DNA of 31,539 bases from a virus. Below, piece by piece: positions 2,201-31,539 of this stretch. The notes beneath the pieces were generated by a model. That model saw nothing but the letters and a program-made list of their open reading frames with translations, had not been told where the DNA came from and did not search any database. Made by a program: the position numbers and the translations under genes. The DNA lies in IMG/VR virus record IMGVR_UViG_3300022689_000425, positions 1 through 31,539 of that record. The stretch is one strand, 5' to 3'. Positions within the stretch are counted from its first letter, which is position 1. Each line of letters opens with the position of its first letter.

Positions 2201-3415
2201 ATGAAAATACATACAGTTTATCAGGACTATCGCAAGAAGCCTTATGTGGCGCGGTGGTATGAGGGCGGGCGGATGCGCAATCGGTTCTTTGCAACAGAGC
2301 AGTCCCGCGAGCAGTTCATCCGCAACTTCCGGCAGTCTGCCGCTGGGCAAGACCCTTCGCTGCCGATCATCGAGGCGCACAAGATCATCCGCTGGCAACA
2401 GGCAGCGCAGATCGCCCCCGATGCCGACCCAGTCGAAGTTTACCGCTTTTGGTCAGCCGCGCAGGCTCGAAAGAAACAGCAGGCCACCCGCAACCTGGCC
2501 GACGCCACCCCGCCTTATATTGATGCCATGCAGCGGATGAAACGCCACCCCGCCTACATCGGGCACGTGGACAAGGCGCTGCGGGATTTGCTCGACGAAC
2601 TCGGCGACCGCGACCTGCGGGACTTCTCCGCCGCCGACCTGCGCGAGCACATTTTTTCCCTGCCCTACAGCGAGGTGACGCTCAACCACCGGCGCACCTA
2701 TTTGCAAGGCGCATTCGGATGGTGGCTCAAGCAAGGCTGGGTGGACGAAAACCCAATCCGCAAAATCGAGACCCCCGAAGTCCCCGACAAAGAACCCGGC
2801 ATCCTCACCGTCGCCGAGACCGAGCAGATCTTCCGCGCCAACGAGAAAATCGACCCCGGCATTTGCGGAATCCTCGCCCTCGGCGCATTTGCCGGAATGC
2901 GCAGCTCAGCCATCGCGCGGCTCGCATTTGACGAGATCGACTTCAACCAGCGCGGCATCCTGACCCCTGCGGAGAAGACGAAAAAGAAGCGTCGGCAATG
3001 GATCGAAGACCTGCCGAGCAACCTTTGGCAATGGCTACGCCGCACGCCGCCGGAAATCTTCGACCTAAGCGAGCGGCAACTGCGCCACCTGCGAACGGAG
3101 GCCTTCAAACGAGCGGGGTTACTGGTCGAGGCCGACGACATCGCCCGCGAGCTTCGAAAGCAATCACGCCGGGGTAGCGACCAGCGGGAGGGTAGGGGCG
3201 CGAGCCCCTCGAAGCCTGCGGATGCCATCCGCTGCCCGCCCAAGAACTGCCTGCGCCACAGCTTCGCGACCTACCACGTCGCCCTCCACCGCGACCCAGG
3301 CCGCACCGCGTTGATCCTCAGCCACCGCCAGCAAGACGTTCTCTACCAACATTACCTCGGCATCGCCACCCAGTCCGCCGCCAGCGAATATTTTAAGATC
3401 AAGCCGCGAAAGTGA
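2201..3415 (+). CDS. Tyrosine recombinase (integrase)
   Basis: A 404-residue phage/ICE-type integrase. The N-terminus (Y-x-D-x-R-K-K-P-x-x-A-R-W, residues 7-19) looks like the arm-binding region; a core-binding helical domain spans about 95-190; the catalytic domain runs from about 200 to the end. Visible catalytic residues are R234 (GMRSSAIARL), K259, R352 in K-N-C-L-R-H-S-F, H375 (ILSH) and the probable nucleophile Y385 (YQHYLG). The first His of the usual H-x-x-R box is Asn (N349), and the same change is present in the broken copy at 9451-9690, so it is a family trait rather than damage. Residues about 330-345 are encoded by a perfect AGGGGC/GCCCCT palindrome. It should cut and join DNA at an attachment site, but no att core was identified here. 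Confidence 0.9.
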   Translation: MKIHTVYQDYRKKPYVARWYEGGRMRNRFFATEQSREQFIRNFRQSAAGQDPSLPIIEAHKIIRWQQAAQIAPDADPVEVYRFWSAAQARKKQQATRNLADATPPYIDAMQRMKRHPAYIGHVDKALRDLLDELGDRDLRDFSAADLREHIFSLPYSEVTLNHRRTYLQGAFGWWLKQGWVDENPIRKIETPEVPDKEPGILTVAETEQIFRANEKIDPGICGILALGAFAGMRSSAIARLAFDEIDFNQRGILTPAEKTKKKRRQWIEDLPSNLWQWLRRTPPEIFDLSERQLRHLRTEAFKRAGLLVEADDIARELRKQSRRGSDQREGRGASPSKPADAIRCPPKNCLRHSFATYHVALHRDPGRTALILSHRQQDVLYQHYLGIATQSAASEYFKIKPRK

Positions 3416-3632: not shown

Positions 3633-3806
3633 CGGGTTTGTTTGCTTGGAGGAAGCACCTTTATTAGCGACTGGTTCCCGCCAAGCAACCTTTGAGACTT
3701 TCCGCCGCTGCTTTGGGTGGATTGGCTTCAGGGATTTTGCAAATGCCCGATAACGGTCTAGATTGGCCGCTTTGTGAGAATAGATTTTACAGGAAGAGGG
3801 CTCCGC

Positions 3807-5174
3807 ATGGGCAGGTATTTCTCGGGGCTGCTCGCCTTGGGCTTGCTGTGTTTGGGTGGCTGTGCCAGTGCGCCAGACCAAGCTGAATTGCCAGTGGAGC
3901 CTCCGCCAGCGTTTAGCACAACGGGCGCGGCGCCAGCGCAGGCTGATTGGTGGATGGCCTTTGGTGACGCGCAGCTTGAACGCATCATGCAACGGGCATT
4001 GAGGCATAATCTGACGCTGGCTGCTGCCCGAGAGCGTTTGCTGGCGGCCAGTGCGTTGGCGCGGCGCGAGCGAGCCGAGTTGTTTCCAGAGGTCGACGCC
4101 ACAGGCTCAGTTGATTATGAAACAGGCGATAGTCGCGAGGATGAAACGACTTACGGCATCGGCTTGGCGGCTTCCTATGAGGTGGATTTGTGGGGGCGCA
4201 TTGATGCTCAGGTGCGAGCCGAGGACTTGCGTAAAGAAGCCACGGCTGCCGAGGTGCAAACGATGGCACTTAGCCTGACGGGCGAAGTCTCCCTGACGTG
4301 GTTTCGCTTGTTGGAGGCGCGTGCGCAGCAGGGTCTTTTGGAGAAGCAAATTGCCGCCAATGATGAAGTGCTGTCGGTGCTGGATGCGCGTTTTAAGAGC
4401 GGTGCCATCAGCCGTGCCGATGTCTTGCGTCAAAAGCAGCTTGTAGAGTCAACACGGGAGAGTCTTTTAATCGCCGGACAGGAAGGGAGGCTGCGCGAGC
4501 ATCAGCTTGCGACGCTACTTGGCGAGCCACCGCAGAACCGGGCTGAGTATGAAAATGCCGCCTTGCCGGAATTGCCACCCCTGCCAGCGACAGGGATTCC
4601 AGCCGAGGTGTTGCAACGGCGACCGGATGTGCGTGAGGCCTGGCTCCGCATGCAAGTGCTCGACAGCGAAGTGGCCGCAGCGGTGAGTGCGCAGTACCCG
4701 CGTCTCAATCTACTTGCTGGCCTCGAAACAACGGCGGAAAAACCGGCAAATTTATTTGAAGACTGGCTGGGCAGCATCACTGCGCAACTCGTCGCGCCCC
4801 TTTTTGATGCAGGTGAGCGCAGGGCGGAGGTTCGGCGCACGGCGGCCTTGCAGCGCGAGGCGTTGATGCAATACGGGGAGACGGTTTTAAATGCACTGCG
4901 GGAGGTGGAGGATTTTCTCGTGCGTGAACAGACGGCCAAAGCACGGGTTGAAAACCTGCGCTCGCAAGTCCGGCTGGCCGATCAGACGTATGATCTGCTG
5001 CGTGACCGCTACATGAACGGCACTGCCGATTATATTTCCACGCTGACCGCGTTGACGCAGTTGCAACGACTGCAACGCGACCAATTATCCGCTCAGCTAA
5101 GCCTGTTGGAAGCCCGCGTGGGGCTTTACCGCAGTCTGTCGGGCGGCTTCGAAGACCATCATGAGCAAAACTAA
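3807..5174 (+). CDS. Outer-membrane efflux lipoprotein (TolC/NodT family)
   Basis: The outer-membrane channel of a tripartite efflux pump. I chose the ATG at 3807 rather than the in-frame ATG at 3774, because it gives an ideal lipoprotein signal (hydrophobic LLALGLLCLGGC with lipidated Cys19) and has a good ribosome site, AGGAAGAGGG, at 3791-3800. The 455-residue product has the two-fold OEP repeat: coiled helices at about 60-240 and again at 265-445, with the typical family motifs L-P-A-T-G-I-P-A-E-V-L-Q-R-R-P-D-V-R at the start of the second half. It is the first gene of the operon and overlaps the membrane fusion protein gene by 14 bases. Expected to trimerise in the outer membrane. Substrate is unknown. 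Confidence 0.92.
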   Translation: MGRYFSGLLALGLLCLGGCASAPDQAELPVEPPPAFSTTGAAPAQADWWMAFGDAQLERIMQRALRHNLTLAAARERLLAASALARRERAELFPEVDATGSVDYETGDSREDETTYGIGLAASYEVDLWGRIDAQVRAEDLRKEATAAEVQTMALSLTGEVSLTWFRLLEARAQQGLLEKQIAANDEVLSVLDARFKSGAISRADVLRQKQLVESTRESLLIAGQEGRLREHQLATLLGEPPQNRAEYENAALPELPPLPATGIPAEVLQRRPDVREAWLRMQVLDSEVAAAVSAQYPRLNLLAGLETTAEKPANLFEDWLGSITAQLVAPLFDAGERRAEVRRTAALQREALMQYGETVLNALREVEDFLVREQTAKARVENLRSQVRLADQTYDLLRDRYMNGTADYISTLTALTQLQRLQRDQLSAQLSLLEARVGLYRSLSGGFEDHHEQN

Positions 5175-6318
5175 ATACATTTTCGTAACCATCGCCGCCT
5201 GCCTGATCATCCTGCTGATTGCGGGCGGTATTGTCTGGTGGATACAAAACAGCGAACCAACCGCCCAGCGCGAAACGGCCACCAAGCGAACCCCCATGCT
5301 GGTAGAAACGGTCAAGGTTCAAGTGGGCGACTACTCCCCGCAGCTACAGGGACTGGGGCGCGTGGCTGCGGCAGAAGAGGTCATGCTCAGACCCCGCGTT
5401 GGAGGCGAGGTCATCGAAATTTCCAAGAACCTGGAACCCGGCGCTATGGTCAAAAAAGGAGAGGTGCTGGCCAGGCTCGACCCAGCGGATTATCAGAACG
5501 CGCTCGCCATGCGCCAAAGCGAATTGCATCAGGCCGAAGCGGATTTGGCGATGGAAGAAGGCCAGCAGGCAGTCGCACGAAAAGAGTATGACCTGTTGCA
5601 AGAGGAACTGAACCCGCAGCAGCGCGCCTTGGTGCTGCGCGAGCCGCAAATGCAAACGGCTAAGGCTCGGGTCGAGTCGGCTCTGGCTGCTGTGGAGCAG
5701 GCTCAGTTAGACTTGGACAGAACGACGTTACGGGCACCCTTTGACGCGCAGGTACTTGAGCGGATGATCAACGTCGGCTCTCAAATCGACCAGGGCGATG
5801 CAGTCGCTCATCTTGTCGGCACGCAGGAATACTGGGTTGAGGCCACCGTGCCCCTGACGCAACTGCAATGGATCGAGCTGGGTTCCAACCCGTCGGAGGC
5901 CGTTATACGCAAGCGCGGGGTTTGGACAGACGGTCAGCAGCGCGTGGGCACGGTTGTGCGCGTTATTGGAACGCTGGATGAGCAGACGCGATTAGCGCGG
6001 GTCTTGATTTCGGTCAACAATCCAATCGGTAATGAAGAGGCGGTGCTGCTCATTCTGGATTCGATTGTCGAGGTAACGATTGCCGGCCGCGAAATGGAAG
6101 GCGTCGTGCGGCTGGATCGCGACTACCTGCGAGAGAACGACACCGTGTGGGTCATGCAGGACAGCAAGCTTTCGATCCGCAAGGTGGACGTTCTCTTTCG
6201 CGACGCCGAGTATGCCTACATAGCCTCGGGTCTGGAGCAGGGGGACGCGGTCGTGCGTACCAATCTCTCGCGGGTGCGCGAGGGCGCGGAGCTGCGTACG
6301 GAAGGAGCCGCCGAATGA
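5161..6318 (+). CDS. RND efflux membrane fusion protein (HlyD/AcrA family)
   Basis: Periplasmic adaptor of 385 residues linking the inner-membrane pump to the outer-membrane channel. An N-terminal membrane anchor spans about residues 6-28 ([21 protein letters not shown]). The first half of the lipoyl/barrel-sandwich domain is seen around 75-110 (G-G-E-V-I-E-I, then G[13 protein letters not shown]). A charged Gln/Glu-rich alpha-hairpin covers 115-185. The second lipoyl half follows ([18 protein letters not shown]), then beta-barrel and membrane-proximal domains. Its stop overlaps the permease ATG by four bases (ATGA), which supports translational coupling. No Cys lipobox, so it is held by the transmembrane helix. 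Confidence 0.93.
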
Positions 6319-9300
6319 GCGACGATCAGAAAGGCTTGATCGCATGGATGGCGCATAACTCGATCGCTGCGAACCTGCTGATGGTCATCTTGCTGGTGGG
6401 CGGTTTCTGGACAGCTGCGAGCATTCAAAAGGAAGTGTTCCCGCAGTTCCAGCTGGACATTGTCAACGTGGGCGTGGCCTATCCAGGCGCATCGCCGACA
6501 GAAGTTGAACAGGGCATCTTGCGCCCGGTGGAGGAGGCTATTCGCGGCGTAGAAGGCATCCGCGAGATTACTTCCAGCGCCCGTGAAGGCAGCGGCAGCG
6601 TGTCAATTGAACTGGTTTCGGGCGCGGATCGCATGAAGGTCTATCAAGATATCGACCAGGCGGTGAGCCGCATCCGCACCTTTCCCGATGACATTGAGCA
6701 GCCGGAGGTGGAACTGGAAGCACGGCAGCGCGAGGTGATCGAAATCGGCTTGTATGGAGATGTGGATACATGGGAACTCCGCAAGCTGGCCGAGCGCCTG
6801 CGCGACGTAATGATCAGCAACGAAAACATTACGCAGGTGGATCTCGGGCGCGTGCCAGAGTATCGAACACACATCGAGGTCGACCGTGCTACGCTTCGCG
6901 AATACGGACTAACACTGGAGACCATCGCCAGCATCATCCACGATTCCAGCGAGGACATTCCCGCCGGAGCCGTAGAAACAAGCGCGGGCGAAATTCTTCT
7001 CCGCGTGAAAGAACGCAGGCAATGGGCCGATGAATTTGAGCAGGTTGAAATCGTTACGGGTCGCAATGGCGCAGTTGTCCGGCTGGGCGATATTGCACAG
7101 GTCAGGGATGGCTTTGAAGAGGATAACTTCCACTCGCAATTCAACGGGCAGCCTTCGATTGAGTTGAACATCTACCGCGTGGGCTCACAGTCACCCATCG
7201 AGATAGCCGATGCCGTTATGGGCATCATGGCCGACTTTGAAAGTGCTTTGCCCGAGGGCGTCGAATGGCGTATCGATAGCAATGATGCCGAAGATTTTCG
7301 CGAGCGAGTGAGCTTGGTGGTCGAGAATGGCTTGCTCGCGATTCTCATAGTTCTCGTGATATTGACGCTCTTCCTGGAGTTCCGTCTGGCCTTCTGGATT
7401 ATGATGGGAATGGCGATTTCCTTTATCGGCGGCATCCTCTTTTTGCCCGCGGTCGATGTCAGCATCAATATGATTTCGCTCTTCGGCTTTCTGGTGGTAT
7501 TGGGCATTGTAGTGGACGACGCTATCGTCGTTGGTGAGAACATCCACGATCATCAGGAAAAGGAGGAAGACTGGCTGAAAGCGGCCATCAGCGGTGCCAA
7601 AGAAATGGCCATGCCGGTAACTTTTAGCATCCTCTCCAACATCATTGCCTTTATCCCGCTGCTCTTCATCCCGGGCGAAACGGGCAAATTCTGGGGGCCG
7701 CTTCCGGTGGTGGTCATCATGGTGCTGGCGCTCTCGCTGTTTGAGGCACTGTATATTTTGCCCGCACACTTTGGGCATGGTCGCCGCAAGCGCAAACGCA
7801 GCAAGGCCGGGGCGGCGCTCCACAATTTGCAGCAGCGCTTTGCACGCGGCTTCCAAGCCTTCGTCGATACCCGCTACAATGCCTTCCTGACTTTCTGCCT
7901 GCGCTTTCGTTACATTACGTTGACGGTTGCCATCGCTGTCGTTGCGATCGTGGGCAGCTACGCCACCAGCGCGCACATGGGCATGATTATGATGCCCGAG
8001 GTTGCGGCGGACGAGATCGAGGCCGGCGTGCGCTTACCTGTGGGCACAACCCCGCAACAGGCCGCTCGCGTGGCAGAAGATGTCACCGCCGCCACCGCCC
8101 GAATGTTCGACGAACATAACCTTTACGAGGTTGCCGAGGGGATTAAGACCAACGTGCGCGGTCAAAATTTTATCGATGTCGAGATCGTGTTGCGCCCACC
8201 GAATGAGCGTGATATGACTGCCCGCGAAGTCATACAGTTATGGCGCGATAATATTGGCGATCTGCCGGGGCTGGATCAGATTACCTTTGAGGCCGAACGC
8301 GGGCCGGGCGGCTGGCGACAGGATATCAGCGTCGACCTTAGTCATGAAAATATCGACACGCTCGAAGCTGCCAGCCAAGAGTTCCTTGAGCGCATGCAGC
8401 AGTATGAATCCACCCGCGACGTTAACGACAATTACAACAAAGGTAAAACGCAGCTCGATTTCCAATTGCTGCCCGAGGGGCGTGCGCTCGGCCTGACGCC
8501 TGCCGACCTGGGGGCACAACTGCGGGGTGCTTTTTATGGCGACTTGGCACTGCGGCAAATCCGGGGCACCAACGAGGTCGAAGTCCGCGTAAAGCTCCCC
8601 CTGGAACAACGCCGCGACATCTACCACCTGGAAGACCTGGTGCTGCGAACGCCGGACGGTGCCGAGGTGCCGCTCATGGACGTAGCCAGAATGACTTCCG
8701 GCGAAGCGTTCACTTCCATCAATCGCCGGGACGGGCGGCGCATTGTCAACGTGTCGATGGATGTCGAGCCCAAGCGTGCCGTTGGCCAAGTGGTCGAAGC
8801 CATTCAGCAAACGGAGCTGCCCGCGCTGCGCGACAAGTACCCCGGCTTAACATGGACTTTCGAAGGTACAGATGCAGAAATGCGCGACGCCACGGCCTCC
8901 CTCTGGGGCTGGTTTGGCTTTGCGCTCTTCATCATCTATGCGCTGCTGGCCGTCGCCTTCAGGAGCTATCTGCAACCGCTCATTGTCTTCGGCGCGATTC
9001 CTTTTGGCCTGATCGGCGCGGTTGTGGGGCATATACTTCTGGGCTACGATCTCTCGCTGGTCAGCCTCATGGGGATCATCGCGCTGTCGGGAGTCGTCGT
9101 CAATGACGCGCTGATTATGGTGACGCACGCCAATCGCCAGCAGGGGTTGAGCCCGTTCGAAGCGATCCGGCAGGCCGGGCTGCGACGCTTCCGTCCTATC
9201 ACGCTCACAACATTGACGACCTTCGGCGGCCTCTCGCCCATCATTTTTGAACCCTCGATGCAGGCGCAATACCTGATCCCGATGGCCATTTCCCTGGGCT

Positions 9301-9404
9301 TCGGAATCGTCTTCGCCACGGTCATTATCCTCGTCTTAATCCCCTGCCTCTACCTCGTCTTAGAGGATATTAAAAACCGTCGCGTATTTCAGGGCACTTA
9401 TTGA
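6315..9404 (+). CDS. RND family efflux permease, inner-membrane subunit
   Basis: A 1029-residue resistance-nodulation-division transporter, the usual length for the AcrB/MdtB-type superfamily. The start at 6315 (MSDDQKG) is set by the ATGA overlap with the adaptor gene and places the first membrane helix ([15 protein letters not shown]) about 20 residues in; a longer open frame upstream is only read-through inside the adaptor gene. The proton-relay Asp pair D401-D402 lies in helix 4 ([14 protein letters not shown]), and the matching helix-10 block is [11 protein letters not shown]. Two large periplasmic loops with porter repeats are present (about 40-330 and 560-850). It exports an unknown substrate using the proton motive force. 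All three pump genes look intact. Confidence 0.95.
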
Positions 9405-9450
9405 GTATCTACAGGATATGGGCAATGCGTGCAGCGACATGTTCATTATG

Positions 9451-9690
9451 GCCACGGGCGCGAACCCCTCGTGCAAAATCGCAACCGCGATCAAGTCTCC
9501 GCCCAAGAACTGCCTGCGCCACAGCTTCGTCAGCTACCACGTAGCCCTCCACCGCAACCCCGGCCACACAGCCCTCCTAGTCAGCCACAAAAACCAAAAC
9601 ATCCTCTACGAACACTACCTAGGCGTGGCGACCAAGGCAGATGCAGCGCGGTATTTTGAGATCGTGCCCGACAGCGTGATAGAGCATTAA
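9451..9690 (+). pseudogene. C-terminal remnant of an integrase
   Basis: The last 79 codons of an integrase of the same family as the one at 2201. It keeps P-P-K-N-C-L-R-H-S-F, H-V-A-L-H-R-N-P-G-H-T-A-L-L-V-S-H and the nucleophile region Y-E-H-Y-L-G, followed by a similar tail (A-D-A-A-R-Y-F-E-I). DNA identity to 3236-3300 is high (for example GCCCAAGAACTGCCTGCGCC in both). The open frame begins at an incidental ATG (9418), only 13 bases after the permease stop, and lacks the catalytic Arg and Lys parts, so it cannot be active. It is most simply the other end of the gene whose start is at 3453. Confidence 0.85.
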
Positions 9691-21640: not shown

Positions 21641-22640
21641 GCTGATCATCCGCGATGCACGCGAGCATGGTTGGCGGCTGGGATGGCGGGAGGATTTTAA
21701 GGAATTCCAGACGTACCTGCTGCCTTCTGGAGAACGCTCGAAGTATGTCGCCTGCCAGCGGACGTACGAAGGCAGCGGTTGGTACCGGATCGTGGAGCAC
21801 GAGGACGGGCTGATCGTCGGCGTTTGCGACGAGGGCGAATGCGAGCGCAAGGTTTTCAAGAGGGAGGAGCTGGCACGCTTCGAAATCGACCGCAAGGGGC
21901 TGGCTGAGCAGATCGCCAACCTGCTGGAAATTTCCCGCCACTACGTGGAGATCGGTCACTACAGCGATTCGTTCACGGCGCGGCTGGGCTCGCTGGGCGT
22001 CAAGCGGCTGCCCGTGCTGCTGACGATCCAGCGCCATGCGGAAAATTTTGAGGAGACCCTGCGGAACTGGTTCGTCATGAATCCGGAGCCGGTGCTTTTT
22101 ATCATGCCGACGACGCGGAGCCTCTCCGAACGCGCTCAGCAGATACTCAATACGCACCGCAGCTTTGTGTTCACGCTCGACGACAACGTGGCGGTTCGCC
22201 GTGACGGGCTGGCCTTTACCGCCGACGGTCAAGACGCCTGGCTGGACATGCGTGGGCAAATCACCGGAGCCATCGCCAACCGTAGTGGCCTGCGCATCCC
22301 CAGCGATGCCCGCTGGCAAGACCTGTCGATTCGCTTCAAAGACGGCTTCACAGTCAGCGTCCGCCTGGGCGAGCAAACCCGCCAGCTCAGCTACGCGGAG
22401 ATGGGCATGGAGGATAAACGCAGCCGTGCGCCCGATGAGCAGTGGCTATTACTCCAGCGATTTGCCGATGAGGCGGGTGTCCTGACATGGGCAAGTAAAA
22501 GTGCGCACGCAGCCAATAAGAAGCGCAAGGAGCGATTGGCCAAGAAGCTAAAAGCGTTTTTTGGCATCGAGGGCGAACCGTTTGCCTACCGTGCAGAAGA
22601 TGGCGGCTGGGAGGCAATATTTCATGTAGGCTTAGCCTGA
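21606..22640 (+). CDS. Unknown protein, second of a two-gene unit
   Basis: A 344-residue soluble protein of unknown function. I chose ATG 21606 (MSNSNVFW) because the longer frame from 21408 lies inside the previous gene. The N-terminal third is rich in Trp, Tyr and Glu (G-W-R-L-G-W-R-E-D-F); the middle has V-L-F-I-M-P-T-T-R-S-L-S-E-R-A then H-R-S-F-V-F-T-L-D-D-N-V, which could be an alpha/beta nucleotide-related fold but has no P-loop; a Lys-rich helix (A-N-K-K-R-K-E-R-L-A-K-K-L-K-A-F-F) lies near the C-terminus and may touch nucleic acid. It ends convergently with vapC, overlapping it by nine bases. Confidence 0.65.
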   Translation: MSNSNVFWKSLELIIRDAREHGWRLGWREDFKEFQTYLLPSGERSKYVACQRTYEGSGWYRIVEHEDGLIVGVCDEGECERKVFKREELARFEIDRKGLAEQIANLLEISRHYVEIGHYSDSFTARLGSLGVKRLPVLLTIQRHAENFEETLRNWFVMNPEPVLFIMPTTRSLSERAQQILNTHRSFVFTLDDNVAVRRDGLAFTADGQDAWLDMRGQITGAIANRSGLRIPSDARWQDLSIRFKDGFTVSVRLGEQTRQLSYAEMGMEDKRSRAPDEQWLLLQRFADEAGVLTWASKSAHAANKKRKERLAKKLKAFFGIEGEPFAYRAEDGGWEAIFHVGLA

Positions 22641-23060
22641 CTCTGTATGCTCCCAAGGATTCACTAATTCGAGCCCTGAGCTTTCGAAGTCGCTGGTGTT
22701 TCGTGTGACCAGGGTCAGCGAATGCAGTTTTGCTGTGGCTGCAATTAGCGCGTCGTTATAGCTCATCTTGCAGGAGTATCTGTAGTCAGCCGCAGCTTCT
22801 GCAATGGAGCGGTCTATGTCCAATAACGCAAAGTGCTCAGGCTGCGAAACAAGCAAAACATACCACTGTTTCAGTAGGTCGGCAAAGGCGGTATCTTTCT
22901 GCTCTATCTTGCGGATGCCATAGCATATCTCGTTTAGCGAAACGACGCTTATGAAGGTGCGAGCATCCCCAATAGAAGCCTGCCAGCTGAGTACTGATGG
23001 GTCTGCCATTGCGCCCTTGCGAAATTCCGAAAGGGTGACGGTGTCGAGCAGGTAAGCCAT
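22632..23060 (-). CDS. vapC: VapC-family PIN-domain toxin
   Basis: A 142-residue PIN-domain ribonuclease. The acidic metal-binding set is complete: D6 (Y-L-L-D-T), E44 (S-L-N-E-I), D103 (Y-N-D-A-L-I-A-A-T-A) and D124 (V-T-R-N-T-S-D-F). VapC toxins usually cut tRNA or rRNA. The start overlaps the stop of the antitoxin gene by one base, as in many vapBC operons. Its 3' end overlaps the plus-strand gene at 21606-22640. Inserted beside a phage-like module, it probably helps to keep the island in the population. Confidence 0.93.
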   Translation of the reverse strand: MAYLLDTVTLSEFRKGAMADPSVLSWQASIGDARTFISVVSLNEICYGIRKIEQKDTAFADLLKQWYVLLVSQPEHFALLDIDRSIAEAAADYRYSCKMSYNDALIAATAKLHSLTLVTRNTSDFESSGLELVNPWEHTESG

Positions 23061-23314
23061 TACTGTTTGAAGGAAACTTCGCGCACTTTACCGGCTTGCC
23101 GATCGTCCAGTGGCAAATCCTTGGCAAAGAACCAATCTGGAGCCTTATCGAGCGTGAGTGCCTCTGCGAGTGTTTTGTTTGGCTTCACTTTAGCGGCCTG
23201 AAGCTCTTTTTGGACGACATCAGCCAGCCATGCGGACAGCGATTTTGATTCATCGACTGCCCTGTGGCGTGCCTGACGGCAAAGCTCATCCGGTAGTTTC
23301 ACGGTCACATTCAT
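23060..23314 (-). CDS. vapB: VapB-type ribbon-helix-helix antitoxin
   Basis: An 84-residue antitoxin. I start at the ATG complementary to 23312-23314, which gives a compact ribbon-helix-helix N-terminus (M-N-V-T-V-K-L-P-D-E-L then helix C-R-Q-A-R-H-R-A and S-L-S-A-W-L-A-D-V-V); the longer frame from 23437 adds 41 residues through the likely operator. The C-terminal tail (D-W-F-F-A-K-D-L-P-L-D) should wrap the toxin. It is expected to bind and silence the VapC product and to repress its own promoter, probably through the repeats at 23361-23389. Confidence 0.85.
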   Translation of the reverse strand: MNVTVKLPDELCRQARHRAVDESKSLSAWLADVVQKELQAAKVKPNKTLAEALTLDKAPDWFFAKDLPLDDRQAGKVREVSFKQ

Positions 23315-23360
23315 TTCGACTAGCACGGTTGCACGATTACACGAAAATCGCAAGTTTTTT

Positions 23361-23389
23361 ATTTGTCGCGGGACAAATAGTTTTGTCCC
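23361..23389. promoter_or_regulatory. Alternating inverted repeats upstream of vapB
   Basis: ATTTGTC (23361-23367), GACAAAT (23372-23378) and TTTGTCCC (23382-23389) form a chain of alternating inverted copies; GGGACAAA (23370-23377) pairs perfectly with 23382-23389. It lies 47-75 bases upstream of the vapB start in the divergent region to the HTH gene at 23503. Such a pattern suits co-operative binding by a ribbon-helix-helix antitoxin. A further CGACAAAACGACAAG stretch occurs near 23473-23487. The remainder of 23315-23502 is non-coding. Confidence 0.5.
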
Positions 23390-23502
23390 TGAAAACTTTT
23401 TCAATAAAAGTTTCCACCCTGCAGACCGCATAAACAAGGGAAACTGGCGATTTTAAGCTCCTCCGGCAAGCGCGACAAAACGACAAGTCGCCATAGGGGG
23501 GT

Positions 23503-23811
23503 GTGAAAGACGCAACATCCAAAGACCCTCTCGAAGCGAAGCTGGAGCATCTGAGTTTTCAGGTGGCTCAGTTGACTGAAGTTGTCCGTGATCTGAAGGA
23601 GCCGGGCGTAAAGTACGTGCTCACGGTGGAGGAACTGGCGCAGCGCTGGGGACTTTGCGCGGAGGCCATCCGCCGCCTGGTGCGGGAGAAGCAGCTGCGC
23701 CCGCTACGGGAGTTTCGCCCGTACCGGTTCACGCTGGATGAAATTCGCTCCTTTGAGAGCAACGAGAAGCCGCGTTACGCCACCGCTGGCCGGAGAGGGG
23801 GTCGCCGGTGA
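23503..23811 (+). CDS. Excisionase-type helix-turn-helix protein
   Basis: A 102-residue DNA-binding protein. Residues 8-33 form a short amphipathic coiled coil; 39-83 match the excisionase/MerR-like winged helix (V-L-T-V-E-E-L-A-Q-R-W-G, then A-I-R-R-L-V-R-E, wing around P-Y-R-F-T-L-D-E-I). The tail is Arg/Gly-rich. The start is GTG 23503, forced by a TAG stop three codons upstream; the G-rich ribosome site is very close to it, so a later internal start remains possible. It is the first gene of the phage-like operon and overlaps the nuclease gene by GTGA. It could act as Xis for an integrase or as an early regulator. Confidence 0.75.
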   Translation: MKDATSKDPLEAKLEHLSFQVAQLTEVVRDLKEPGVKYVLTVEELAQRWGLCAEAIRRLVREKQLRPLREFRPYRFTLDEIRSFESNEKPRYATAGRRGGRR

Positions 23812-24251: not shown

Positions 24252-24276
24252 CGTTCAACCCATAAGTAAAAATCGT

Positions 24277-25266
24277 ATGCAAAAATCCAATACAAACGCA
24301 TTGCCGCTGATCAGTGGCAAAATCACCAAACCGCAGCGGGTCGTCATCTACGGCCCGGAAGGCATTGGCAAGAGCACCCTTGCCGCCGCCTTTCCCGAAC
24401 CGGTCTTCCTCGACACCGAGGGCGGCACCACGCACCTCGACGTCACGCGCTTTCCCAAGCCCGAGCGCTGGGAAGACGTCCTGGGCTTCATCGCGCAGCT
24501 GGCTCAGAGCGACCACGGCTTCAAGACGCTGGTGGTCGACACCGCCGACTGGCTGGAGCGCCTGCTGGTCGAATACATTTGCCAACGCTCGCACAAGGAG
24601 AGCATCGAGGACTTTGGCTACGGCAAGGGCTACACCTACCTGGCCGAGGAATTTTCCCGCTTTCTGCAAAGCTTGGAGTCGTTGCGGGAGCGCAGGATGC
24701 ACCTGCTGATGGTGGCGCACTCGACGATCCGCAAGCACGAGCAACCCGAGGCCGCCGGGGCTTACGACCGCTACGAACTGAAGCTCTCCAAGCAGTGCGC
24801 GCCGCTGCTCAAGGAATGGTGCGACCTGCTGCTCTTCGTCAATTACTTCACGAAAGTTACCGACAACGATGGTAAGAAGAAGGCTGTCGGCGGCAAGGAA
24901 CGGCGCATCTACACGAGCCACTGCGCAGCCTACGACGCAAAGAATCGCCACGGCTTGGAGGAAGTCCTGCCCATGCAGTTTGCGTCATTGGCAGGCGTCA
25001 TCCCGTCCACGGCTCCGCAGCCGGTGAAGGCACAGCCCAAGCCAAAGAGCCAGCCGGCCAAGCCCGTCACCGCGCAGCAAATCGAAACGCTTGAAGGGCT
25101 CTGGAAGCAACTCGGCTACGGCCAGCAGCAGATGGCCAAACTCTTCGAGTGGCTCGGCGCAGATGCCATTAGCGGAGCCGAAAGCTGGACAGACCTCAAT
25201 AGGGATCAAGCCGCACGCGCCTGCGACTTCCTAGCCAAAAAGCTCAGCGAGCAAGCAAGCGCTTAA
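24277..25266 (+). CDS. Sak4-like RecA-fold phage recombination ATPase
   Basis: A 329-residue P-loop ATPase of the phage AAA_24/Sak4 type. Walker A is G-P-E-G-I-G-K-S (26-33), followed by F-L-D-T-E-G-G-T (43-50), and Walker B T-L-V-V-D88-T-A-D. A Pro/Lys/Gln-rich linker (about 248-270) leads to a short C-terminal helical domain. The ATG at 24277 (MQKSNT) is preferred over the frame start at 24130, because the latter overlaps the nuclease gene and is encoded by the palindrome cluster. Phage proteins of this kind promote single-strand annealing or strand exchange together with an SSB, and the next gene supplies a likely SSB partner. Confidence 0.85.
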   Translation: MQKSNTNALPLISGKITKPQRVVIYGPEGIGKSTLAAAFPEPVFLDTEGGTTHLDVTRFPKPERWEDVLGFIAQLAQSDHGFKTLVVDTADWLERLLVEYICQRSHKESIEDFGYGKGYTYLAEEFSRFLQSLESLRERRMHLLMVAHSTIRKHEQPEAAGAYDRYELKLSKQCAPLLKEWCDLLLFVNYFTKVTDNDGKKKAVGGKERRIYTSHCAAYDAKNRHGLEEVLPMQFASLAGVIPSTAPQPVKAQPKPKSQPAKPVTAQQIETLEGLWKQLGYGQQQMAKLFEWLGADAISGAESWTDLNRDQAARACDFLAKKLSEQASA

Positions 25267-27189: not shown

Positions 27190-27212
27190 TGGACTTTGTA
27201 TCCAAAAAAACC

Positions 27213-27518
27213 TTACGATGCCTTTGCCAGCGGCTGAACTTCTTCCTCGATTTTCGCGCCGAGTTCATTGCGGGCTTTGCGCAGGTCGTGTTCCTTTTGC
27301 AGACCCAGCCAGAAGTCCGGCGTTGTCCCAAAGTAGCGTGCCAGGCGCAGGGCAGTGTCCGGCGTAACGGCGCGGCGACCATGAATGATCGCGGTGACGC
27401 GGCTATGCGGGATGCCTATATCCTTGGCGAGTCGATACTGGGTGATGTTCATTTCGTCGAGAAATTCCTCGCGCAGAATGTCGCCCGGGTGCGGAAATTT
27501 AAGTGCCTTTTTGCTCAT
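27213..27518 (-). CDS. higA: HigA-type XRE antitoxin
   Basis: A 101-residue antitoxin with the standard HigA start (P-H-P-G-D-I-L-R-E-E-F-L) and an XRE helix-turn-helix (T-Q-Y-R-L-A-K-D-I-G-I-P-H-S-R-V-T-A-I-I-H-G-R-R), then F-G-T-T-P-D-F-W-L-G-L-Q. It lies 12 bases downstream of the toxin gene, the toxin-first order typical of higBA. The pair is antisense to the replication genes on both sides. It neutralises HigB and likely represses the pair's promoter. Confidence 0.95.
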   Translation of the reverse strand: MSKKALKFPHPGDILREEFLDEMNITQYRLAKDIGIPHSRVTAIIHGRRAVTPDTALRLARYFGTTPDFWLGLQKEHDLRKARNELGAKIEEEVQPLAKAS

Positions 27519-27530
27519 TGGATTTGCGGG

Positions 27531-27812
27531 TTAATGGTAGTCGGTAATTTCGACATCGAAGACGTTGCCTGCCTCCCAGCGGAAGCAAATCCGCCACTGT
27601 TTGTTTATGCGTATACTGTGTTGCCCCTTGCGCTTGCCAGAGAGTGCTTCGAGGCGGTTGGACGGCGGGCTTCGCAGGTCGTCAAGGTCGGCGGACTGGC
27701 TAAGCATCGCGAGCTTGTTGAGCGCACGCTGCTGAATGTCCTGCGGCAAGCGCCGCGAACGTTGCTGGTTCCATATTTTCTCTGTCTCGGCGTCAGCAAA
27801 GCTTTTGATCAC
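27531..27812 (-). CDS. higB: HigB-type RelE/ParE-fold toxin
   Basis: A 93-residue ribosome-dependent mRNA interferase of the HigB group. Family features seen are I-K-S-F-A-D at the start, R-L-E-A-L-S-G-K-R-K-G-Q-H-S-I-R-I-N-K-Q-W-R-I-C-F-R-W in the middle and V-E-I-T-D-Y-H at the end. The start codon is GTG (complement of 27810-27812). About 59 bases separate it from the divergent primase-helicase start at 27872, so the two share a promoter region. Confidence 0.94.
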   Translation of the reverse strand: MIKSFADAETEKIWNQQRSRRLPQDIQQRALNKLAMLSQSADLDDLRSPPSNRLEALSGKRKGQHSIRINKQWRICFRWEAGNVFDVEITDYH

Positions 27813-27871: not shown

Positions 27872-29785
27872 ATGAAGTATACAGGTCAAAAAACGATCCC
27901 CACGGACTTTTGCGAGCTGGCGGAGGCTGTTGTCGGAGCGGTGGAGTGGGAGAGTGAGCACGCGGGCTTTTGCAAGTGCCCGGGCGAGCATCTGCACACA
28001 CGCCCGACACAGCCCCGGGATTGCCGGGTCTATCTGGATGCCGACAATGGCTATGCGCCGACGATCCACTGCTTTCATGATAGCTGCCGTGAGTTGACAG
28101 CGCAGGCGAACTTTTCCCTGCGCTCCTCCATCGGAAAAGCGGCTTATCGGCAGGGCGGCGGCTGCCAGCGTATTGCGCTGTCAAAAGTCATCGCGGATCC
28201 ATTCGAGGCATTTTTGACAGCGTGTTTTGAGCCGGGTGACATCTTGTCCATCGCACCCGGCTTTGTCCCTGATGATGCGGGCAGAGCGGTGCCCGAGCAC
28301 GGCGGCGTGAATGTTTTTTCACGGGATCATTGGCTGTCAAAAGTCAAAAATAAGGGCGGCATTGAGAAGCTCTTTTCGAGCCGTAATGGACTGTACATTC
28401 GGATCAATCCAGTGACTGCAAAATCGCGCGGCGGCGACAAGGACGTGACCGCGTATCGCCACACGCTTATCGAAAGCGACAAGATTCCCAAGGGCGATCA
28501 GGAACGCATCCTGCGGGACTCCGGGTTGCCTATCGCGGCGCTGATCGACTCCGGCGGCGAGAGCATCCATGCCTGGGTGCGGGTCGATGCGCCGGACAAG
28601 GAAGAGTACCACGAACGGCGTGAGCGGCTCTGGGCGTCGTTGCCCGAGGGCTTTGTGATCGATGGCCAGAACAAGAACCCGTCGCGCTTTTCACGGTGCC
28701 CTGGTGGCCTGCGTGGGGACGCTGTGCAGCGGTTACTGGACGTCAATCTCGGCCCCGCTTCATTTGAGCAGTGGGAGCAGGAGTGCGACGGGCTCGGTCT
28801 AGCGCCGCCGATGCGGGTGTCGCAACTTTCTGGATACGATACCGAGAACGATCCCAACAACGTGCTGGGCAACCGCTGGCTGTGCCGGGGTGGCAGCCTG
28901 ATCATCGTCGGTCAGTCGGGCATCGGCAAGTCGTCGTACTCGATGCAGCTCGCCGTCATGTGGGCGCTGGGCAAAGCCGTGTTCAACATCAAGCCAGTGC
29001 GCCCGCTCAAGAGCCTCATCATCCAGGCCGAGAACGATATTGGCGACCTCGCTGAAATGTTCCAGGGCGTGCGTGCGGGCATGGGGTTGACCGCTGAGGA
29101 CGACGCGCTGCTGGAAGAAAACCTGATCTTTTACCGCGACACGATCCACAGCGGCGCAGACTTTGCCAAGACCGCCGAGACGCTCATCAATCGCCACCAG
29201 CCAGACCTCGTGTGGGGTGACCCGCTGCTCAACTACATCGGCGACGACGCCAGCCAGCAGAAGGTCGTGAGCGAGTTCTGCGGACGCCAGCACTGGACGG
29301 GTTCCGACTTTGCATACAGCGGTCTGGGCTCCTCGGCGCTGACCAACTGGGCGCGTGAGGTGGCCGTGCTCATGCGGGTGAAGACGCCCGAGGGCATGCC
29401 GCCGACTTTTCGCTTTGAACTGTGCAAGCGCCGCCGCCGCGCGGGCATGACGGACACGCTGGGAAACCCCACCGAGAGCATCTACCTGTGCCACGGTCAG
29501 AGCGGCATCTGCTGGCAGCAATGCGCCCCGCCACCCGAACCGGAAAAGAGCAGCGGCACCACCTACACTATTGGCAAGAGGAAGGGTAGGGGACGCCCCA
29601 AGGCAGAGGTAGCCGCCATAGATGAGTTCGAGGGGCTGAGGCAACTCACCAATGACATGGCCTCTGAATTATCCGCCAAGTATGGCGTCTCAACCGCCAC
29701 AATTAAGCGCAGATGGAAAGCATTTAAGACCGAGAAAATTAACCAAGAAAAACACACTCATGAAGACGAAAAAAAACTGCCGTAA
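27872..29785 (+). CDS. Primase-helicase fusion protein of the phage replication module
   Basis: A 637-residue multidomain protein. Residues 34-72 hold a Cys/His cluster (C34, C36, H40, H42, C51, H66, C67, H69, C72) that looks like a zinc-binding primase finger. A primase-polymerase-like domain follows, with I-D-S-G-G-E-S-I-H233-A-W at 225-235, a pattern seen in archaeo-eukaryotic-type primases. From about 325 comes a RepA/AAA_25-type RecA-fold helicase with Walker A G-Q-S-G-I-G-K-S (347-354), I-I-Q-A-E-N-D and W-G-D-P-L-L-N-Y-I-G. The C-terminal 60 residues hold an HTH (Y-G-V-S-T-A-T-I-K-R-R-W). The gene probably primes and unwinds at an element origin, and the structured region just downstream is a candidate. 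Confidence 0.85.
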   Translation: MKYTGQKTIPTDFCELAEAVVGAVEWESEHAGFCKCPGEHLHTRPTQPRDCRVYLDADNGYAPTIHCFHDSCRELTAQANFSLRSSIGKAAYRQGGGCQRIALSKVIADPFEAFLTACFEPGDILSIAPGFVPDDAGRAVPEHGGVNVFSRDHWLSKVKNKGGIEKLFSSRNGLYIRINPVTAKSRGGDKDVTAYRHTLIESDKIPKGDQERILRDSGLPIAALIDSGGESIHAWVRVDAPDKEEYHERRERLWASLPEGFVIDGQNKNPSRFSRCPGGLRGDAVQRLLDVNLGPASFEQWEQECDGLGLAPPMRVSQLSGYDTENDPNNVLGNRWLCRGGSLIIVGQSGIGKSSYSMQLAVMWALGKAVFNIKPVRPLKSLIIQAENDIGDLAEMFQGVRAGMGLTAEDDALLEENLIFYRDTIHSGADFAKTAETLINRHQPDLVWGDPLLNYIGDDASQQKVVSEFCGRQHWTGSDFAYSGLGSSALTNWAREVAVLMRVKTPEGMPPTFRFELCKRRRRAGMTDTLGNPTESIYLCHGQSGICWQQCAPPPEPEKSSGTTYTIGKRKGRGRPKAEVAAIDEFEGLRQLTNDMASELSAKYGVSTATIKRRWKAFKTEKINQEKHTHEDEKKLP

Positions 29786-29813
29786 CCTCAGTATCAAAAA
29801 TATCAAAATTACC

Positions 29814-29959
29814 AGGCTCAAAACTCTTAATTTTGATTCCAGTGTCAGGCTCAAAATACAGTCTCCCCCTAATAGGGGAGAGACTGTTTTTGATTTTGAG
29901 CCTAGACAATCCCCGTACCCCTTACCCGCCAAGTTCAAAAGAAATATGATACTGAGCCT
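29814..29959. repeat. Four AGGCTCA/TGAGCCT repeats around a long hairpin
   Basis: AGGCTCAAAA occurs at 29814-29823 and 29847-29856 on the plus strand; the inverse, TTTTGAGCCT, is at 29894-29903 and a shorter TGAGCCT at 29953-29959. The two middle copies pair perfectly over 11 bases (AGGCTCAAAAT with ATTTTGAGCCT). The region is AT-rich and falls between the primase-helicase gene and the next start. The arrangement suits repeated protein-binding sites, for example for the primase-helicase HTH. Confidence 0.55.
29858..29891 (+). terminator. Hairpin with T-tract, possible intrinsic terminator
   Basis: ACAGT-CTCCCC (29858-29868) pairs with GGGGAG (29875-29880) and ACTGT (29883-29887), giving an 11-bp stem with a two-base bulge and a six-base loop. 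It is followed immediately by a short T run (29888-29891). It would end transcripts of the primase-helicase gene. Because it is nested within the AGGCTCA repeats, an origin or regulatory role is an equal possibility. Confidence 0.5.
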
Positions 29960-29980
29960 AAGTGGAAAAGGAGGTGCGCG

Positions 29981-30601
29981 ATGAGCCATGGTGATTACGC
30001 AGACCGGCAGCACGCGCGAGACCGCGAATACGCCGCCGCGTGGGAAAAGCTTTCACCACAGCAGAAACGCGAGCTGGCCAAGGCTGGGATCCAAGGACCT
30101 GAGCTGCCGGTTTACCACACGCGCAAAACGGATCACGAAACCTGCATCGAGCTCAGCCGGGATGCCTCCATGGTGACCCCCGAACACTCCGCCGCCGACG
30201 ACGAACCCGACCTCCCCCTGGCTGACCGCGTGGAAGGCTCTGTGGCGGCTTCTGAGGCGTTGGAGGGCGGCGAGGATAGTCAGACCTGTGCCGGGGCGTC
30301 CGGCTGTGATACAGAGGTGCTCATGGCGGTTCTGCGGCGCTTGCTGGGCGAGATGATGGCCAGCGATAACGTGCGCCTGACGCTGGACTGCCTGAGCCTG
30401 ATTACCGGCATGAGCTACGACGGCGCTTCGATGCGCGAGATCGCCAAGCGCCACCAGATCACGCGCTCAGCCGTCTCGAAACGCTGCGTGCTCATCGCCG
30501 ACTCGCTGGGGCTGCCACCCTCGCGAGCGATGCGTCAGTTGACAGCGCGGCGTGTGTATGAGCGACGTGCCAGAAACAGCCATTCCCGCAGTGCCCACTG
30601 A
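29981..30601 (+). CDS. Sigma-region-4-like HTH protein
   Basis: A 206-residue protein. The N-terminal 60 residues are charged and probably helical; 65-105 are acidic and low in order; 110-195 hold a helical domain ending in a sigma-70 region-4-like HTH (M-R-E-I-A-K-R-H-Q-I-T-R-S-A-V-S-K-R). A strong Shine-Dalgarno, AAGGAGGT, lies at 29968-29975. In phages such small HTH proteins often switch on later genes or act in the packaging module. The next gene starts 44 bases before its end. Role is inferred only from the motif and position. Confidence 0.7.
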   Translation: MSHGDYADRQHARDREYAAAWEKLSPQQKRELAKAGIQGPELPVYHTRKTDHETCIELSRDASMVTPEHSAADDEPDLPLADRVEGSVAASEALEGGEDSQTCAGASGCDTEVLMAVLRRLLGEMMASDNVRLTLDCLSLITGMSYDGASMREIAKRHQITRSAVSKRCVLIADSLGLPPSRAMRQLTARRVYERRARNSHSRSAH

Positions 30602-31244
30602 CGAATCCAGCTACCGCCTTAGCCCCGTTGGCATCGAGTTCACGGGCGAGCTCGACCACGAGGGCTGGCGCGTGCTCGGCAGGCACCTGGGCAGCGCGGG
30701 TCGCTCGGTGGGGTTCCTGCTGGGCGACTGGATCAACTACGGCGAAGTCAAGGGCAAGTGGGGCGACACCTACACCGAGGCGATGGCGATCACGGGCATG
30801 GAGTACAGCGAGCTGACCAAGTTCGCGAGCGTGTCGCGCAAGGTGCCTTTTCGGCTGCGCAGCCAAAATCTTAGCTTTGAACACCACCGCAAGATCGCGC
30901 CACTCAAAACCGACGAGGAAAAGAAGAAGTGGCTACAAGTGGCCGAGAAAGAACGCAGTCGTAGCGGCGGCAAGCCCATGTCCTCGCGCCGTCTGGCAAA
31001 GTCGATCCTCGCCGGGCGCGTGGTCAAGCAGGAAGAAATGTCCGTGCCCGAGAGCGACCGAGGCATCGACAACGTCCACCCGCACGTAAACCGCATCGTC
31101 TCGTTCTGGCGTAGGCTCAAGGACAAGCAGTGGCTCGCAGGTGCAGATGACACCATGCTCGAAGCCTTGCTGGCCGACCTGGCGCCAGTCACGCAGATAG
31201 CCGAAGAATTGCGCGAGGAGCTCAAACAACGCCGCGATAGTTGA
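30558..31244 (+). CDS. LmbU-like helical protein, function unknown
   Basis: A 228-residue protein. I chose ATG 30558 (MSDVPE) over the GTG at 30552. Residues about 60-130 carry the pattern N-Y-G-E-V-K-G-K-W-G-D-x-Y-x-E-A, I-T-G-M-E-Y-S-E-L, then L-S-F-E-H-H-R-K-I-A-P-L, which resembles a domain shared by LmbU-type transcription factors and several phage proteins. The C-terminus is a charged helix. No catalytic motif is seen. Together with the sigma-like gene it may control or use the repeat array directly downstream. Confidence 0.6.
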   Translation: MSDVPETAIPAVPTDESSYRLSPVGIEFTGELDHEGWRVLGRHLGSAGRSVGFLLGDWINYGEVKGKWGDTYTEAMAITGMEYSELTKFASVSRKVPFRLRSQNLSFEHHRKIAPLKTDEEKKKWLQVAEKERSRSGGKPMSSRRLAKSILAGRVVKQEEMSVPESDRGIDNVHPHVNRIVSFWRRLKDKQWLAGADDTMLEALLADLAPVTQIAEELREELKQRRDS

Positions 31245-31259
31245 GATGGTGGTTTAAGT

Positions 31260-31479
31260 GTATCCGAAAGTTCGATACGTAAACTTCCGCAAGGTTGACA
31301 AGGCAACAAAAATGTATCCCAAAGTTCAATACGAAACGCTCGCGAGTTGACAACGCCGCATAGGTGTAACCAAAAATCCAATACAAATTTTCCGACGAGT
31401 TGACAACGAACGATAGGTGTAGTGAAAAACCTGATACAACTTTTAACGATGATCTAAAACGTATCCAAAAAGCCCATAC
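31260..31479. repeat. Five 19-bp dyad repeats, iteron-like array
   Basis: Five copies of a 19-mer occur at 31260-31278 (GTATCCGAAAGTTCGATAC), 31314-31332 (GTATCCCAAAGTTCAATAC), 31366-31384 (GTAACCAAAAATCCAATAC), 31419-31437 (GTAGTGAAAAACCTGATAC) and 31461-31479 (GTATCCAAAAAGCCCATAC). Start-to-start distances are 54, 52, 53 and 42. Each has outer GTAT/ATAC or near-dyad symmetry. Between them lies a second repeat, GAGTTGACAACG (31344-31355 and 31397-31408, with a variant near 31293). After the array come small hairpins (31485-31504 and 31505-31521). The last 60 bases hold no recognisable gene. Confidence 0.75.
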
Positions 31480-31539
31480 ATAGAGCCAGGCCGGCGTAAC
31501 TGGCACCCCGAAACAGGGGGTCTATAAGGAATCTATCCC

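Follow-up and report, generated by a model that had tools for sequence, protein, structure and literature searches.

A phased array of 19-bp sites behind an LmbU-like gene in a Verrucomicrobiota virus-like element, probably a multi-site protein-binding region at the replication-to-late junction

In SopB-sopC of plasmid F and in other ParB-parS systems, tandem units of about 40 to 50 bp, each with a short dyad, lie behind the gene of a ParB-type protein, and proteins of this type bind palindromes as dimers. In phage lambda, the cosB site and the ori iterons likewise consist of several phased sites, close to terminase or replication genes. The Streptomyces protein LmbU is described as binding a palindrome through its central HTH and as forming homodimers, and its site in Streptomyces lincolnensis is CGCCGGCG in antibiotic promoters (PMC6510168). 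Mycobacteriophage stoperators are described as several same-strand asymmetric sites in short operon gaps (PMC9283540).

Here, we describe a tandem array near the end of the IMG/VR virus record IMGVR_UViG_3300022689_000425 (31,539 bases, analysed at full length and called the window below), a fragment of a virus-like element of Verrucomicrobiota type without end repeats. As in the ParB-parS systems, short-dyad units stand in tandem immediately downstream of a gene whose product has a predicted ParB-type HTH; unlike in those systems, the five units are degenerate and not conserved, the protein model has no CTP-binding domain, and no ParA was found among the window proteins scanned. Compared with lambda cosB and the ori iterons, the location relative to the late block and the absence of the array in relatives speak against both. 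The family match and the position of the HTH resemble LmbU of S. lincolnensis (PMC6510168), whereas the window has a phage gene with an array. With stoperators (PMC9283540), the array shares several same-strand asymmetric sites, and it differs in being clustered and phased, with few dispersed sites and no repressor gene recognised in the record.

The replication module extends from position 23503 on and encodes an excisionase-like HTH protein, a VRR nuclease, a Sak4-like ATPase and an SSB-like DUF669 protein, then a helicase, a primase/helicase, an HTH protein and the LmbU-like protein, a gene order also found in Verrucomicrobiota genomes and viral contigs. A HigBA toxin-antitoxin pair (27213-27812, minus strand) is inserted antisense between the helicase and primase genes, which are adjacent in relatives, and genes for a PIN-domain (VapC-like) toxin and a probable antitoxin occupy 22632-23437 on the minus strand. 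An integrase gene (2201-3415) and a C-terminal integrase remnant (9418-9690) flank a three-gene efflux set (3774-9404), and type I restriction genes follow this region; efflux and restriction names were given by eye. The features relevant to the array are the following.

24275-24293, plus strand: sixth site GTATGCAAAAATCCAATAC, standing apart from the array on the Sak4-like (recombinase) start codon, 23.7 bits
27198-27216, plus strand: weak, possible site GTATCCAAAAAAACCTTAC right behind the stop codon of the helicase gene, 16.7 bits
29981-30601, plus strand: conserved HTH protein, earlier called sigma-like
30558-31244, plus strand: LmbU-like protein with a predicted ParB-type HTH (residues ~44-154), candidate binder
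31240-31245, plus strand: GTTGAG, a degenerate box that overlaps the stop codon of the LmbU-like gene and lies 20 bp before unit 1
31260-31278, plus strand: unit 1, GTATCCGAAAGTTCGATAC, 19 bp
31294-31300, plus strand: GTTGACA box, 20 bp before unit 2
31314-31332, plus strand: unit 2, GTATCCCAAAGTTCAATAC, 19 bp
31346-31354, plus strand: GTTGACAAC box, 20 bp before unit 3
31366-31384, plus strand: unit 3, GTAACCAAAAATCCAATAC, 19 bp
31399-31407, plus strand: GTTGACAAC box, 20 bp before unit 4
31419-31437, plus strand: unit 4, GTAGTGAAAAACCTGATAC, 19 bp, the most degenerate of the five
31461-31479, plus strand: unit 5, GTATCCAAAAAGCCCATAC, 42 bp after unit 4, not preceded by a GTTGAC box
31526-31536, plus strand: start of a conserved AAGGAATCTAT block, a late-gene leader in relatives, where the record ends

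The five-unit array is real and beyond chance. Its units lie exactly at the positions given in the preliminary description, and the 19-column consensus, with up to three mismatches allowed, matched the window 11 times, compared with a mean of 0.38 in 100 shuffles, none of which reached 11; unit 4 is not among these matches, all 11 of which are on the plus, that is, the transcribed strand. TRF also called a 53-bp tandem repeat here. Successive units are spaced by 54, 52, 53 and 42 bp, so that the previously noted spacing of 52 to 54 bp, or about five helical turns, holds for the first three gaps, while the last one is close to four turns. The units had been described as 19-bp dyads, with a consensus printed in 18 letters. 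The real unit has 19, and the five are direct repeats in the same orientation with weak dyad symmetry confined to their tips (GTA..TAC, often GTAT..ATAC): dyad pairs 1 to 3 are symmetric in all five units, pair 4 in three and pair 5 in a single unit, whereas the interior (CC-N-AAA) lacks symmetry and is not palindromic. Units 2 to 4 are alike over 49 bp, spacers included. The array is A+T-rich (GC of about 0.42, compared with 0.55 overall) and apparently noncoding. A 30-codon frame starting from GTG (31258-31350; YPKVRY...YPKVQY) spans units 1 and 2, and units 3 and 4 contain stops in the matching frame, both seen by eye.

A matrix built on the five units detected the isolated site at 24275, and with 23.7 bits this site exceeds anything found in about 6 million simulated positions, none of which reached 20 bits under two backgrounds. 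For the score of the site at 27198, about 0.01 to 0.13 occurrences are expected per 62 kb. The proposal of a phased multi-site array that is likely bound by protein is supported by these data, and we regard the region as probably a multi-site protein-binding array at the replication-to-late junction, with a candidate binder and a putative effect that are discussed below.

Interleaved with the units is a second element. Each of units 1 to 4 is preceded, at a distance of exactly 20 bp, by GTTGA, which is extended to GTTGAC(A) before units 2 to 4; unit 5 has no such box. The interleaved word GAGTTGACAACG reported before is exact in front of units 3 and 4 and inexact at the other units. In relatives, GTTGAC was the most frequent hexamer in the interval 9 to 18 bp ahead of ORFs that start with ATG and follow the LmbU-like gene; it was present in 27 of 67 non-redundant loci, compared with a mean of 0.84 (sd 1.45) per hexamer over all 4096 hexamers. 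This count covers 1.3 kb after the LmbU-like gene and required the ATG to open a frame of 60 codons; the 67 loci are related and the 27 are not independent events, and several different downstream ORFs share the box. Among the 40 loci lacking it are L114, L117, L121, L183 and L230, three of which entered the count as L078, L095 and L227; by eye, L114, L117, L121 and L230 have a promoter-like TTGTC-N17-TA.AAT sequence instead. Upstream of the LmbU-like ATG, the box belongs to a conserved coding stretch and has little evidential value. In the reading favoured below, the GTTGAC boxes are a separate, conserved late-region element, distinct from the 19-bp units. A reading of the array as a set of sigma-70 promoters was rejected, since canonical promoters (TTGACA, 16-18 bp, TATAAT-like) are absent from 29700-31539, with 0 sites detected.

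The array itself is private to the window. In the closest relatives found, the primase is 67-70% identical, and relatives with 50-57% identical LmbU-like proteins have no such array. The motif was absent from 24 related loci at the strength of the weakest array unit (18.8 bits), the best match of 17.1 bits lying far from the corresponding slot, so that the GTATCC motif is not conserved among the relatives examined, whereas the interleaved GTTGAC box is. The pattern GTTGACAA-N12-GTA..AAA..ATAC gave single matches in three stretches of viral contigs, none in an array, and a similar pattern gave one isolated match in 372 genomes of one order. Among the papers listed by literature searches on Verrucomicrobia with prophages or LmbU, on promoter motifs with terminase and on stoperators, none was seen to describe such an array, which is not proof of absence.

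The slot after the LmbU-like gene is highly variable in relatives: it is empty in L114, short in L117, filled by a gene in L230, and in some others holds a tRNA-like stretch with small ORFs. A different tandem array, with GTTGACA-N13-GTA units of about 58 bp, occupies the slot of L121 and L183, while L230, a near-twin of L183, has the gene in place of an array. Three spaced GTTGACA words occur in 84 viral stretches and three genome loci, among which only L183 and the G465 locus have two or more units with GTA at +20, and only these have homologues of the module. Downstream, the slot is bounded by a strongly conserved non-coding block, AAGGAATCT[AT]T, which leads to the late genes in relatives and inside which the window ends. 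Among the matches listed, it is present in at least 33 related loci, with identical copies merged and the window's own copy and two unrelated matches left out; by eye, a variant of it can be recognised in L121, L183 and L230. In many relatives, TTCCCAC words follow the block. The tRNA-like stretch, found in the slot of L004-L051 (for example L042:8660-8727), shows by eye a T-arm, CAT in a loop and a terminal ACCA; it lacks a normal D-arm, and ARAGORN called no tRNA in 16 loci.

The array begins 15 bp after the stop codon of the LmbU-like gene, whose product had been proposed as a binder. This upstream neighbour matched NCBIfam NF038070 (LmbU) with 80.9 bits and an E value of 1e-22 (curated cut-off 125) and, by sequence, appears as a clear but distant relative of the LmbU family. 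No Pfam match was obtained at E 0.1, a PDB sequence search gave nothing relevant, and there was no LmbU-like match among 50,697 phage records. An AlphaFold2 model made on 18 sequences was confident (mean pLDDT 82.8) and resembles ParB-type HTH domains: for residues 44-154, the best 12 of 50 rows of a structure alignment include ParB, Noc and Spo0J with Z of 8.1-9.9, values in a range of 8 to 10 that is not decisive for helical proteins, followed by one unrelated row and then SopB, with KorB and VirB among the next ten. Foldseek gave a weak ParB match (best E 0.55). The N-terminal CTP-binding domain of ParB is absent from the predicted model, in which the HTH domain begins near residue 44 of the 228, and the 18 window proteins scanned with Pfam, from a record that is a fragment, include no ParA. 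Tandem imperfect dyads adjoin the gene of a protein with a predicted ParB-type fold, and this neighbour would be the most economical candidate binder.

Of the 235 residues of the LmbU-like proteins of L115 and L116, 25 differ between the two, and the HTH (codons 77-115) accounts for 15 of these differences, while the HTH protein encoded upstream is 98% identical and the modules are otherwise about 89% identical. Silent changes are also raised in codons 77-115, which makes segment exchange likelier than point changes. The specificity of the LmbU-like HTH thus seems to change fast, which would explain a private motif, although no non-coding site inside the L115 and L116 modules changes together with it. 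Divergence between these two loci is concentrated in the LmbU-like HTH and the primase tail. In L183 and L230, the LmbU-like proteins differ at 10 of 226 residues and at none in the recognition helix; as only L183 has an array, an array is dispensable there.

The second candidate, the product of 29981, had been labelled sigma-like, which comes down to a weak match of the HTH to Pfam Sigma70_r4, with an E value of 0.0078 that does not pass the cut-off; its structure model is poor and has generic winged-helix matches. A peptide-pattern search with this protein found no relative, and tblastn on the fetched loci did find relatives. Its HTH is nearly invariant in relatives without the GTATCC motif, which makes it an unlikely binder of this motif. 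HigA and VapB were rejected as array binders, as the matrix search showed no match at their own promoters, higBA included.

Tentatively, at a probability of about 0.38, we read the array as an accessory operator that works where replication gives way to late functions, its most likely binder being the LmbU-like protein. We infer that a dimeric protein, most likely the LmbU-like one, would occupy the five 19-bp sites, whose phasing would place them on one face of the helix, and also the sixth site at the start of the Sak4-like gene. A nucleoprotein complex might thereby form, with the replication operon on one side and the late leader on the other, and modulate read-through into, or the start of, late transcription, as well as its own operon. 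The array is not conserved and does not accompany every LmbU-like gene, which speaks for an operator that is accessory or changes fast rather than for an origin or a packaging site of essential function.

The main rival, which fits almost as well, holds that the sites are immunity-repressor operators or stoperators for a repressor encoded off the record, same-strand sites blocking transcription along the replication module in the lysogen. The restriction of all 11 motif matches to the transcribed strand, and the placing of the isolated site at a start codon and of the weaker one directly behind a stop codon, are in line with it, and private specificity is typical of immunity groups. We consider it unlikely, although the runner-up, as the only Cro/CI-type HTH among the 18 Pfam-scanned proteins of this fragmentary record is the HigA antitoxin, the higBA promoter has no matrix match, and only two sites, one of them weak, lie outside the array. 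Doubtful to a greater degree is a decayed tandem duplication with no present function, minisatellite-like or a remnant of variable-slot cargo. The likeness of units 2 to 4 including their spacers, the degeneracy of unit 4 and the wide variation of slot contents would suit decay; the exact 20-bp distance from box to unit in four units, the helical phase kept despite differing spacers and the isolated copy at 24275 would not.

A packaging site, an origin and an RNA structure are less likely than the operator and repressor readings. Binding of the array by the terminase small subunit (TerS), in the manner of cosB, is improbable: the array does lie between replication genes and what in relatives are late and terminase genes, but the repeated words GTGTAAAG and GTGGGAAA of relatives adjoin TerS or the first late genes, past the conserved block, at a place that in the window's element would fall outside the record, as does its terminase. 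These words were rejected as LmbU sites and follow TerS better, as L116, L118 and L119 share a word and have similar TerS but different LmbU-like HTHs. An unrelated C75C1-like lineage does have arrays of GTAT-N11-ATAC dyads upstream of TerS, which are real; phage C75C1 itself has no array there. In 12 loci of this lineage, picked for having arrays, 64 of 65 dyads lie within 900 bp upstream of TerS, and the arrays, upstream of this gene in all 12 loci measured, precede it by about 160-810 bp. They resemble the window in standing before late genes and differ in spacing (mostly 19-71 bp) and interior, the lineages being compared by terminase genes alone. The bare two-copy pattern GTAT...AAA.....ATAC proves nothing, since its 24 stretches compare with 18 for the reversed control, each of 85 bases, as though they came from a single sequence family. 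Tandem intergenic dyads of GTATC type were also seen in L058, L061, L127, L128, L133, L137, L138, L140 and others.

Still more improbable is a replication origin with iterons. Direct repeats that are phased, A+T-rich and close to primase, helicase and DNA-binding genes would fit, but the array, unlike the conserved iterons expected at an initiator gene, is missing from relatives, and a different repeat set with a strong hairpin (29815-29958), kept in nine of nine relatives, is a better candidate and likely the origin. That region, between the primase and HTH genes, has four TGAGCC copies around the hairpin (29858-29887); the same layout in the nine relatives examined uses other words, TGACAGC or, in L121, L230 and L231, TGACACT, and between L183 and L230 the word has changed in concert despite nearly the same HTH and LmbU-like proteins. 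Hairpins in a transcript leader, very improbable even though unit 1 can by eye form a short one, were rejected, as the array has no stronger fold than shuffled sequences have (z +0.93; 162 of the 200 shuffles fold as well), units 3 and 4 break the stem and Rfam gave no match of note.

It is tempting, if doubtful, to generalise and to see in the LmbU-like proteins of phages a kind of ParB relative that lacks the CTPase and nucleates centromere-like arrays, serving as a switch for late genes or for maintenance, with HTH segments exchanged as blocks and arrays that come and go; the other, conserved element, the GTTGAC box, would mark where late genes start in Verrucomicrobiota phages. An operator bound by the LmbU-like protein would give these widespread, little-studied phages a control region in cis together with a candidate for its binder, and would link ParB-type DNA binding in phages with the LmbU regulators of antibiotic clusters; a mere remnant would be of small significance. 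The conserved GTTGAC box is a candidate late-gene signal open to direct test. Downstream of LmbU-like genes, we also observed perfect palindromes TGGGAAATTTCCCA of up to 16 bp in L078, L108, L227, L008, L044 and L050, and the palindrome TGTAAAGCTTTACA in L090 and L093.
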